Positions 12,990 to 62,527 of a stretch of DNA of 64,000 bases are shown piece by piece. The translations under genes and the position numbers were made by a program. Within the stretch, counting starts at the first letter, position 1, and each line of letters starts with the position of its first letter. The notes beneath the pieces are model-generated. The model ran no database searches, was not told the DNA's origin, and saw only the letters and a program-made list of their open reading frames with translations. Source of the DNA: Bacillota bacterium (GTDB taxonomy: Bacteria > Bacillota > JADQBR01); assembly GCA_016278515.1 (NCBI GenBank), contig JADQBR010000002.1, positions 1 to 64,000 on the forward strand. Reading direction: 5' to 3'.

Positions 12990-14381
12990 ATGAAGAAAAT
13001 AGTGATAATAGGCGGCGGGATAGCCGGATTATCAGCGGCTTATTACTTACAAGAACAAAAGATTAATGACCTTTCCATTACTCTCATAGAGGCTGAAGAT
13101 AAATTGGGAGGAAAACTACAAACTGCAGATGAAGACGGTTTTGCCATTGAAGGAGGGCCCGATTGCTTTCTTTCCCAAAAGCCGGCTGTAGCCAGGTTAG
13201 GGAAGCAAATAGGAATATCGGAGGATTTAATAGGTACCAGTGAGGAGAACAAAGGGACATATATTTTGTCCGGAGGGCGCCTGCACGAGCTTCCCGAGGG
13301 GCTGATGCTGATGGTTCCAACAAAAATATTACCTTTTGCGACAAGCTCATTAATTTCTTGGCCCGGTAAGTTTCGCATGGGGCTGGATATGGTGCTTCCT
13401 AAAAAAAATAGTAGCGGAGATGAAAGTTTAGCCAGTTTTGTAACCCGTCGCTTAGGAAAAGAAGCTCTAGATAAAATTGCGGAACCGCTTATCGGTGGTA
13501 TACATGCTGGTGATCCGGATAATATGAGTCTAAAAGCTAGTTTCCCACGTTTTTTGGATATGGAGTCTAAACATCGTAGTCTTATTAAGGCTATGCTTGT
13601 TGGCAAAAGGGAGGCAGCCCGGTCTAAGGGCAAAAAGACTTCCCATTTTATGTCTTTTGTCGGAGGTATGGGAGAATTAGCCCAATCAGTTGCGGGCAAA
13701 CTAGATTCCGTAGAAATAAAGACAAGCTGCCCCGTTCAATCCGTCAACTATAGTGATAAGTTCCATATTACGTTAAAAAATGAGGAGCAGCTTGAAGCAG
13801 ATTATGTCATATTTGCTGTTCCAGCATATGCGGCGGCTGACATTATCGAGCAACAAGACAAGCAGATTGCTCAGACTTTACGCAGTATAAATTTTGTTAA
13901 TTCTGCTACCGTATCGGTGGCGTACCATAAAAATGATCTAGGGAAACCCTTAAAAGGTTACGGTTTTGTTATTCCGTCCCAGGAAAAAAGAAATATTATG
14001 GCTGTAACATACAGTTCGCAAAAATGGCACCATCGTATTCCCAACGATAACTACCAGCTACTCCGATGCTTTGTAGGCGGACCCAAAAACCAAGACATGG
14101 TGCTGTTGGATGATGAGGAAATGCTAACTAAAGTAAAAGCTGAGTTAAAAGATATATTGGGAATTACAGCTAAACCGCTTCTAACGAAAATTTGCCGCTG
14201 GGTTAACGGTATGCCCCAATATTCCATGGGCCATTTGGAAAGGGTAGAAAGTATTGAACAACGGTTGGAACGTTTTCCGGGTTTGGCTCTTGCAGGTAAT
14301 TCTTATCGGGGAATTGGTGTTCCCGACTGTATTGAGTCAGGCGAAAGGGCTGCAAAAAGGATATTAGAAAGGCTACACTAA
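12990..14381 (+). CDS. hemY: Copro-/protoporphyrinogen oxidase (HemY-type flavoprotein)
   Basis: 463 aa. FAD-binding IIGGGIAGLSAAYYL at residues 6-20 and the matching ALIEAEDKLGGK-type second motif, IEGGPDCFLSQKP, and a C-terminal GLALAGNSYRGIGVPDCIESG that binds the flavin. In Firmicutes this enzyme (CgoX) oxidises coproporphyrinogen III. It is normally oxygen-dependent, which is notable beside otherwise anaerobic metabolism. Last gene of the operon; a terminator begins at its stop codon. Confidence 0.92.
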   Translation: MKKIVIIGGGIAGLSAAYYLQEQKINDLSITLIEAEDKLGGKLQTADEDGFAIEGGPDCFLSQKPAVARLGKQIGISEDLIGTSEENKGTYILSGGRLHELPEGLMLMVPTKILPFATSSLISWPGKFRMGLDMVLPKKNSSGDESLASFVTRRLGKEALDKIAEPLIGGIHAGDPDNMSLKASFPRFLDMESKHRSLIKAMLVGKREAARSKGKKTSHFMSFVGGMGELAQSVAGKLDSVEIKTSCPVQSVNYSDKFHITLKNEEQLEADYVIFAVPAYAAADIIEQQDKQIAQTLRSINFVNSATVSVAYHKNDLGKPLKGYGFVIPSQEKRNIMAVTYSSQKWHHRIPNDNYQLLRCFVGGPKNQDMVLLDDEEMLTKVKAELKDILGITAKPLLTKICRWVNGMPQYSMGHLERVESIEQRLERFPGLALAGNSYRGIGVPDCIESGERAAKRILERLH

Positions 14382-15223: not shown

Positions 15224-15790
<567 letters not shown>

Positions 15791-57715: not shown

Positions 57716-57982
57716 TTAAATTTTTAAAAGCTTACTTATTTTTTCCTTATTTGCTTCAAAACCTAGAATAACTTCTTTGCCGATAACTATGGTTGGTACT
57801 GCTAAACGATTGTATTTTTCGACCAGTTCCTCTCTGTTTGTTTGATTGACAATATCCTTCCAGGTTATTTCAATGTCCTTGTCCGCAAAGAACCTCTTTG
57901 CAAGTTGACAGTCACTTCAAGTTTCAGAAGAGTAGATAGTGATATTTTTTTTGCCGCCGAGAAGGTTTTGTATAAAGCCCAT
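57716..57982 (-). CDS. Glutaredoxin-like selenoprotein (UxxC), 88 aa with in-frame UGA
   Basis: ATG at 57982 after AAGGAGAT on the minus strand. Frame is open to TAA at 57716 except for TGA at 57919-57917, codon 22. Around it: ITIYSSET-U-SDCQLAKRFF, so UGA occupies the first position of the CxxC redox motif. The rest is a normal glutaredoxin/thioredoxin fold with cis-Pro in LAVPTIVIGKEVILGFEANKEKI. A SECIS-like hairpin follows the UGA (57878-57904). Selenocysteine is therefore more likely than a nonsense mutation. Cytoplasmic redox or NrdH-like role. It lies downstream of the GGDEF gene. Confidence 0.8.
57878..57904 (-). promoter_or_regulatory. Bacterial SECIS-like hairpin
   Basis: In the mRNA: CUUG, then stem GCAAAG/CUUUGC with loop AGGUU, closed by CAAG. 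It starts 12 nt after the UGA. The loop resembles the AGGUCU loop of E. coli fdhF SECIS and its GU is in the expected place for SelB. Confidence 0.7.
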
Positions 57983-58049
57983 TAAGATATCTCCTTTTTA
58001 AATATTGTTACTAGAAGTCTGCTACATCACCGTAGTTATTATTCTTCAA

Positions 58050-60077: not shown

Positions 60078-60701
60078 TTATATGCTGTCCAACAATTCCA
60101 TTAATTTATGTCCGTGTTTAGTGAGAACCAAACTGACCCATAAAACTGATACCGAAAGGTAATTCTGAATTTCAGCTGCAGATGGTATACTACTTTGCGA
60201 TAAAAATACTGTAACAGCCAAAATCCCAGCTAACATTAATATGGACATAGTTTTTAATCTTTTTCTCCTTGCAGGTGAGACAATTGGCGCCTGGGGTGTG
60301 TCTACGGGAGCCAGCCGCCTTATTACTATAAAGCTAACTATTATTGCAGCTATAGATAGGAAATCGGTAAACTCGTAGGGTAGTAGCGTCCACAGTTTAC
60401 CCGAAATAGCCAGCAGTGGGAATACTAACATAGTAATGGCGCCGCAGCGTAATGCTGATTGAGAATGTGCTCCGCCCGCTGTCTGACGAAAAAGAGCTAC
60501 CACCAGCAAACAAATGGCAGTACCGTATAAAACACCCAAAACAAACCCTAACAGGCCAGCTAGCAGCACACCGGTAATATTTAATACTAAAAGCTCTATT
60601 ATGTAAGCCAAAACAGCTTCTTTCTCTTCAGAAGCGCTTGTTCTTTCTGCTAAATAACCTGCTATACGCTTGCTGAAAGCCATATAACTCAAATTGTCCA
60701 C
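60078..60701 (-). CDS. agrB: AgrB-family peptide-processing membrane protease
   Basis: 207 aa with about five to six helices. The AgrB active-site block FRQTAGGAHSQSALRC is present: R72, H79 and C86 match the conserved Arg, His and Cys of the family. It cleaves and cyclises AgrD. GTG start 60701 overlaps the upstream gene by 13 nt; TTG 60692 or ATG 60683 are alternatives. Confidence 0.88.
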   Translation of the reverse strand: MDNLSYMAFSKRIAGYLAERTSASEEKEAVLAYIIELLVLNITGVLLAGLLGFVLGVLYGTAICLLVVALFRQTAGGAHSQSALRCGAITMLVFPLLAISGKLWTLLPYEFTDFLSIAAIIVSFIVIRRLAPVDTPQAPIVSPARRKRLKTMSILMLAGILAVTVFLSQSSIPSAAEIQNYLSVSVLWVSLVLTKHGHKLMELLDSI

Positions 60702-61147
60702 TCATCCTTTTTCTCTTTTCTGACCACTGATATTAGAATAGCCACTAGGTTTAATAATAGTGCTTGCAATAAGCCCAAAAGAGACCATTGCATTACATTT
60801 GATTGAGCTTCTTCCAGAGTCAGATGTGTCAACGCAAAATATGGTTCCAACACTAATATCTCCATTATAGCTAACATTCCCAGAGTTATAACGGAAACCA
60901 ATAAAGCTTTAGATGTGGAAACGGTAGTCGTATAATTCAGAAAAATAACCACTAATAACAAACCGGCTATGGTATGGATGCCGAATGTTAAGGGTAAAGA
61001 CCTGAGAGTGAATAGAATAAGAGCCAGGACTGACCCGCTGGTAGCGATAATTCGCCACCGCAGTGGCACTGCAGCTAAGGCCAGACTGACAGCAACAACC
61101 CCCATGGACTCAGGTATACCCTGCAAAAAAAACATTAATAATTTCAT
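60689..61147 (-). CDS. Stand-alone receptor-like membrane protein of the Agr locus, 152 aa
   Basis: Start ATG 61147 (or 61150), after AAGGAGTG. Five to six helices: FFLQGIPESMGVVAVSLAL, ATSGSVLALILFTL, LTFGIHTIAGLLLVVIFL and LLGLLQALLLNLVAILISV. The sequence (FLQGIPE...LPLTFGIHT) resembles the membrane sensor half of AgrC-like kinases in clostridial Agr loci, but no kinase domain follows. Overlaps agrB. Likely peptide-sensing or partner protein; inference. Confidence 0.65.
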   Translation of the reverse strand: MKLLMFFLQGIPESMGVVAVSLALAAVPLRWRIIATSGSVLALILFTLRSLPLTFGIHTIAGLLLVVIFLNYTTTVSTSKALLVSVITLGMLAIMEILVLEPYFALTHLTLEEAQSNVMQWSLLGLLQALLLNLVAILISVVRKEKKDEWTI

Positions 61148-61245
61148 CATGTCACTCCTTACCCTAAGGTGTCGTTGTATCATTGGAAATCTTTTCTACA
61201 ATTACCAGGCAAATTCCTCTATAAATGCTAAGAATTTTTTCAAAT

Positions 61246-61277
61246 AGAAAAAACCCGGCTCTTATACAGCCGAGTTT
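61246..61277 (-). terminator. Terminator of the sensor kinase gene
   Basis: Minus strand arms AACTCGGCT and AGCCGGGTT, loop GTATAAG, then TTTT. It overlaps the kinase stop codon. Confidence 0.8.
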
Positions 61278-62527
61278 GGTAAATTGACGAAAAAGGTCGT
61301 TCCATGGCTGCCGGTATCAAAGGTGATGTTGGCGTTTGCTTCCGAAACAAGGCGGTAACAGGTAGTTAAGCCTAAACCGGTGCCGTTTTCCTTGGTGGTT
61401 AGAAACGGTGTGCCAAGCTTATCTAATATCTTAGGGTCAATGCCTCCTCCCTGATCTTTAACGGCTAAAATAACATTATTTTTTTCTGTATATGTACTAA
61501 TAGTGAGCGTGCCCCCGGGTTTCATTGCTTCCAAACCATTTCGTGTTAAATTAAGAATTATCTGCCGTATTTGATTTTCTTGTACCATTATGTTTGGCAC
61601 TTCTGCCAAATCAAGTTCCAAGTACTTGTCCTGCCCCAAGGCATCAGCTTGGATCAAGAGGGAAATTGTCTCGACAATTCTGCTTATGTCATGCAGTCTA
61701 GGCTTCTCTTCTTTGTTTTTTCCAATGGCAAGAAATTCAGAAATCATTGAGTTTGCTCGGTCTAATTCCTCTATCATAAGATTAAATATCTTTTTTTCCT
61801 CCGCATACTTATCTTTCTCTGACAATACCTGCAAAAATCCCCGGACGGTGGTCATAGGATTTCGTACTTCGTGGCTAATACTTGAAGCCATTTCTCCCAA
61901 CAAATTAAACCTTTCCAGGCGGTTAACTTCATTTCCTAAATTCTTTACTTCAGTAATAACTGTCTTAAGATAGTCTTGATGCTGCCTCTCCAAGTCAGTT
62001 ATGCCGCCAACATACCAGCCAACTAAAAGAAACAACCCTACCAACACCAGGTGCGATTCCACAATAGCACTTACTGTTTGTCCAGTCCCCGTCATAATAC
62101 TAAAAGTTATTAATAATGCAAGAGAAATGCAGGCCATAATCAGAGCAGGCTTTTTACCCATAATCGTTGCAGTAACTATAATGGGAATTAGAAACAAGAC
62201 TTCCGAATAATACTGAGCAACCCCGACAACATAAAAAACTAAGGAAACAAACATAAGTGAAAGGGATACATAGAGGAAATCTGTCAATACCTTAGAGTCA
62301 TTGTCGTCGTAATTTCGTTTTCGATTTTGATAAAGCAATATTACCCCGCAGCCAATTACACTTATGATAATAACTAATCGAATAGTCATGTAAGGGTACA
62401 TTTTAGAATTGATACTATCTGCCAGCAGCAGAATATACATAGTTAATAATAAGCAGAACATATGGGCCGACGTTATATATTCACTAATATGTTTCTGCCT
62501 TAACAATTCTTTTTCCTCAATTTGCAC
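61262..62527 (-). CDS. Membrane sensor histidine kinase
   Basis: 421 aa. Six N-terminal helices (~20-175) ending in WYVGGITDLERQHQDYL, then HisKA with H219 (SISHEVRNPMTTV), N box (LNLTRNGLEAM), and G1/G2 (DQGGGIDP, NGTGLGLTTC). This is the KinB/sporulation-kinase-like class without a fused receiver. GTG start after TAGGAGAG. Its sensor domain matches that of the GGDEF/HD-GYP protein. No cognate regulator nearby. Confidence 0.9.
   Translation of the reverse strand: MQIEEKELLRQKHISEYITSAHMFCLLLTMYILLLADSINSKMYPYMTIRLVIIISVIGCGVILLYQNRKRNYDDNDSKVLTDFLYVSLSLMFVSLVFYVVGVAQYYSEVLFLIPIIVTATIMGKKPALIMACISLALLITFSIMTGTGQTVSAIVESHLVLVGLFLLVGWYVGGITDLERQHQDYLKTVITEVKNLGNEVNRLERFNLLGEMASSISHEVRNPMTTVRGFLQVLSEKDKYAEEKKIFNLMIEELDRANSMISEFLAIGKNKEEKPRLHDISRIVETISLLIQADALGQDKYLELDLAEVPNIMVQENQIRQIILNLTRNGLEAMKPGGTLTISTYTEKNNVILAVKDQGGGIDPKILDKLGTPFLTTKENGTGLGLTTCYRLVSEANANITFDTGSHGTTFFVNLPNSAV

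Follow-up and report, generated by a model that had tools for sequence, protein, structure and literature searches.

The minus strand at positions 57716–57982 of the window (the whole 64 000-nucleotide stretch of Bacillota DNA analysed here) very probably encodes, with a probability that we put at about 95%, a selenoprotein of 88 residues that belongs to the glutaredoxin kind (YruB/cGrx1-like) of thioredoxin-fold thiol/disulphide oxidoreductases and has a predicted Sec22-x-x-Cys25 redox motif. As judged from comparative sequence analysis, the TGA at codon 22 is almost certainly read by the cell as selenocysteine. The initial annotation of this locus had already proposed a selenoprotein, and our data support that reading; on both points named there as able to overturn it, a genome devoid of selB or selC and close homologues with TGA in other places, the findings went in its favour.

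Results

The gene starts with an ATG at 57982–57980 and ends with a TAA at 57718–57716 of the minus strand, and contains a single in-frame TGA at 57919–57917. When this TGA is read through, one frame of 88 amino acids plus TAA appears, with a single odd codon and the product MGFIQNLLGGKKNITIYSSETUSDCQLAKRFFADKDIEITWKDIVNQTNREELVEKYNRLAVPTIVIGKEVILGFEANKEKISKLLKI. Residue U22 occupies the first redox position of a UxxC motif (T-U-S-D-C), whose resolving cysteine, Cys25, is encoded at 57910–57908 on the same strand; both Cys25 and Pro63 are invariant in the alignment of relatives. The description of a glutaredoxin-like frame broken only by TGA at the first redox position is thus true, and refers to the minus strand, which the initial annotation had left unmentioned; a plus-strand reading of 57716–57982 was rejected, as it contains stops and yields no glutaredoxin. 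The ribosome site reported earlier was found as a Shine-Dalgarno AAGGAG at 57996–57991 (minus strand), 8 nt ahead of the ATG, and similar sites also precede the genes of most relatives. No terminator-like or minus-strand promoter-like site was seen near the gene in a simple scan. Under the standard code, the ORF list holds no ORF of at least 60 amino acids at this locus, in agreement with the expectation that ordinary gene finders would lose the gene.

The assignment to the glutaredoxins holds as a family call, with a score of 41.4 bits for Pfam PF00462 (Glutaredoxin) against a gathering cut-off of 22.9. The AlphaFold2 model of the product (mean pLDDT 89, weak only at residues 1–9) matches solved glutaredoxins in fold, the closest solved structure being 7c10 (cGrx1), with 38% identity in the structural alignment and an rmsd of 1.3 Å. 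In the glutathione site, GF (residues 74–75) stands in place of the canonical GG, which makes the use of glutathione by this predicted USDC glutaredoxin doubtful and leaves room for a reductase-driven cycle without glutathione.

The in-frame TGA is conserved among relatives. A gene 74% identical to that of the window, present in another genus of the same family (genome G002, locus L023), and a paralogue 65% identical in the window's own genome (G000, contig C43, L024) carry TGA at the equivalent codon. Across 34 aligned relatives, the Sec22 column holds TGA in 26 cases and TGT or TGC in the remaining 8; homologues therefore keep TGA at the equivalent codon or carry Cys, and the displaced TGA codons that would have pointed to a pseudogene were not observed. 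Sec and Cys were exchanged about five times on the maximum-likelihood tree, at least two of these swaps lying on well-supported branches. Profile matches occurred in 85 of 399 genomes of the phylum, and a separate scan of genome contigs returned only three relatives, all distant. Behind the TGA, the comparison between the window gene (L022) and its orthologue in G002 gave a pS of 0.86 and a pN of 0.14, an excess of synonymous change which indicates that this region is translated and under selection; synonymous change also clearly predominates there when the paralogue is included. Further Sec-glutaredoxin genes were noted in the window's genome at 519–761 of L024 (C43) and 1486–1719 of L026 (C12), which brings the total to at least three.

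The same genome (4.27 Mb) carries selA (620 bits), selB (394 bits) and selC consecutively on contig C99, so that neither selB nor selC is lacking. The selC gene, located directly after selA and selB, is called as tRNA-Sec by ARAGORN as well as by Rfam (71 bits against a cut-off of 47), and has the anticodon TCA. Two selD genes complete the set; in both of them the known Sec motif GUxxKIG contains an in-frame TGA. This gene content indicates that the host can make selenoproteins. The two selD genes, both selenoproteins, are clearly different from each other, being located at 13497–14414 of C93 (L068, motif GUAAKIG) and at 15647–16564 of C162 (L069, motif GUACKIG).

A bacterial SECIS stem-loop, GCAAAG-AGGUU-CUUUGC, is located downstream of the UGA at 57901–57885 of the minus strand. 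Its inner stem of 6 bp starts 15 nt past the TGA and its apical loop, AGGUU, lies 21 nt past it; loop length, the G at the second loop position, spacing and energy (MFE −10.4 to −11.4 kcal/mol) all agree with the bSECIS rules (PMC13188914). None of the Rfam models matched the stem-loop. The 6-bp stem with its AGGUU loop had been noticed before, and it is both present and maintained through compensatory changes among UGA relatives. The distance of 12 bases then given is the one to the outer CUUG, which already shares its G with the start of the inner stem, and not the one to the inner stem itself; the proposal that an outer CUUG/CAAG closure forms part of the element did not stand, since that pairing is not retained in the closest relatives and only the inner stem-loop is supported.

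Taken alone, the stem in the window gene might result just from the codons that specify AKRFFA: against codon-synonymous shuffles it gave a P of about 0.095, not significant by itself, and its single-sequence fold z-score is about −1. It becomes convincing only together with the relatives. The stems of L024, L034, L025 and L026 gave synonymous-shuffle P values of 0.006–0.03, and relatives with different residues at this place (VKEFLS, encoded GUGAAAGAGUUUCUUUC) retain a stem at a nearly equal position. Two-sided base changes were found in 6 of the 10 stem pairs, with a covariation score above those of all 500 shuffles and every slid pairing scoring lower, in a count that used a one-nucleotide shift of the three closest sequences (L022, L023 and L024) to bring the loops into register and omitted the MDGUxAC group (UGA relatives L047, L054 and L059). 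On the unshifted alignment, RNAalifold recovered four pairs only, because in L022, L023 and L024 the distance from the UGA to the stem is shorter by one nucleotide, a discrepancy that the loop-based alignment resolved. Overall, most UGA relatives keep the stem and almost no Cys relatives have it. L047 and L054, which are among the more distant UGA relatives, show no clear canonical stem; the third MDGUxAC member, L059, does have one (AUCAAAG/CUUUGAU). One of the Cys homologues, L037 (1642–1692), retains a SECIS-like GAAAG/CUUUC stem behind its TGT, which may be a relic of a recent Sec-to-Cys change.

Discussion

Other explanations of the in-frame TGA have to be weighed against selenocysteine insertion. 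A Cys-coding glutaredoxin could have become a pseudogene by gaining a nonsense TGA from TGC or TGT, which takes one base change, and Cys homologues do exist; we regard this as highly improbable, given that the TGA is retained in the orthologue, in the paralogue and among the 26 TGA-bearing members, that selection behind it is strong, a pattern which a pseudogene would not show, and that the Sec machinery of the genome is complete. Just as improbable is an altered genetic code, or a suppressor tRNA, by which UGA would be read as Trp or Cys. Such a reading would also leave the frame open through the TGA, but TGA is an ordinary stop elsewhere, ending 5 of the 36 long ORFs of the window, a specific tRNA-Sec and SelA, SelB and SelD are present, and the UGA is accompanied by a SECIS-like stem that Cys homologues almost always lack.

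Hardly more credible is a conditional switch, in which UGA would act as stop or as Sec codon depending on the selenium supply and the resulting 21-residue product would have a role of its own. Recoding of UGA does compete with RF2-mediated termination (PMC4513850), but there is no sign of the N-terminal 21 residues as a separate functional peptide, the first strand of the thioredoxin fold in the AlphaFold2 model lies within them, and about nine of the initial residues are missing from the paralogue.

We therefore favour the selenoprotein reading. By analogy with the known bacterial mechanism, the stem-loop 21 nt downstream would recruit SelB, which would deliver Sec-tRNA-Sec to the UGA. As in the cGrx1 family, the selenolate of Sec22 would then attack a disulphide or an oxidised thiol on a partner protein to give a selenenylsulphide, which would be resolved by Cys25. 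The reductant may be a thioredoxin reductase-like protein or a thiol of low molecular weight.

The neighbours of the gene in the window, which encode a PALP-fold enzyme and a GGDEF/HD protein, show no clear functional link to it. In G002 (region 4333–7161 of L062), a heavy-metal P-type ATPase gene and a gene of 99 amino acids without Pfam match precede the orthologue, while a Cys homologue in G275 lies amid ZIP, HMA-ATPase, ArsP-like and CsoR-like genes; no metal-handling neighbour of the sort found in these two genomes was found beside the window copy. Tentatively, and with a low likelihood in our estimation, the glutaredoxins sharing the UxDC and GFxANK motifs (the window gene, L023, L024 and L034, together with Cys forms such as L035) might constitute a separate functional class of Sec-redoxins with its own partner, possibly in metal handling. 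Elsewhere in the window, an AgrB-like gene (60078–60701) overlaps an ORF of 164 amino acids without Pfam match and is adjoined by a histidine kinase gene (61262–62527), and the region 60078–62527 is possibly a peptide-signalling cluster.

The gene represents a clean case of one overlooked by standard annotation and, as the subgroup of Sec-glutaredoxins to which it belongs lies below the NCBI naming cut-off, similar genes have probably been lost in other Bacillota genomes. It leaves the general understanding of selenoproteins or glutaredoxins unchanged.

By sequence and fold, the best match among known systems is cGrx1 of Clostridium (Alkaliphilus) oremlandii, whose native form has U13 and C16 and which has been used as the U13C form (PMC4479559). 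Residues 13 and 16 of 7c10 are both Cys and, from its name and these positions, this structure seems to represent the C. oremlandii Sec glutaredoxin in its Cys form; 7c12 and 7c13 are likewise taken as Cys forms. Both proteins have a small glutaredoxin fold, a UxxC motif with Sec first and a Bacillota host. They differ in that cGrx1 has a PHC motif (CPHC in the structure) where the window protein has USDC, and lacks both the N-terminal extension and the two-residue 'GFEANK' insertion near the C-terminus of the latter. Furthermore, the MsrA served by cGrx1 is a Sec protein, whereas the single MsrA gene detected in the window's genome has no in-frame TGA; a tandem Sec-Grx/Sec-MsrA arrangement was thus rejected there, and the pairing of C. 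oremlandii does not transfer directly.

Among the NCBIfam families, the best match is TIGR02196 (GlrX_YruB), to which the mainstream Sec relatives L026 and L041 belong with 98–101 bits; the window gene (59.8 bits) and the members of its subgroup L023, L024 and L034 (60–72 bits with the window gene) fall below the cut-off of 88.55. This subgroup is marked in the alignment by the U/C-x-D-C motif and the two-residue insertion mentioned above. The UXX-star selenoproteins (NF041212, NF041114 and NF041211) likewise resemble glutaredoxins and carry Sec at the first redox position, but the window gene scores far below their cut-offs (33.7 bits against 66 for NF041212) and its product retains the second Cys. 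Sec-glutaredoxins were included in a 2006 survey (PMC1794560) and in a 2026 review (PMC13188914) and are, with the C. oremlandii protein (PMC4479559), an already described and characterised family. The kind of selenoprotein is hence known, the divergent UxDC subgroup under the NCBI naming cut-off is the slightly new part, and the window gene is a well-supported further member of this family.
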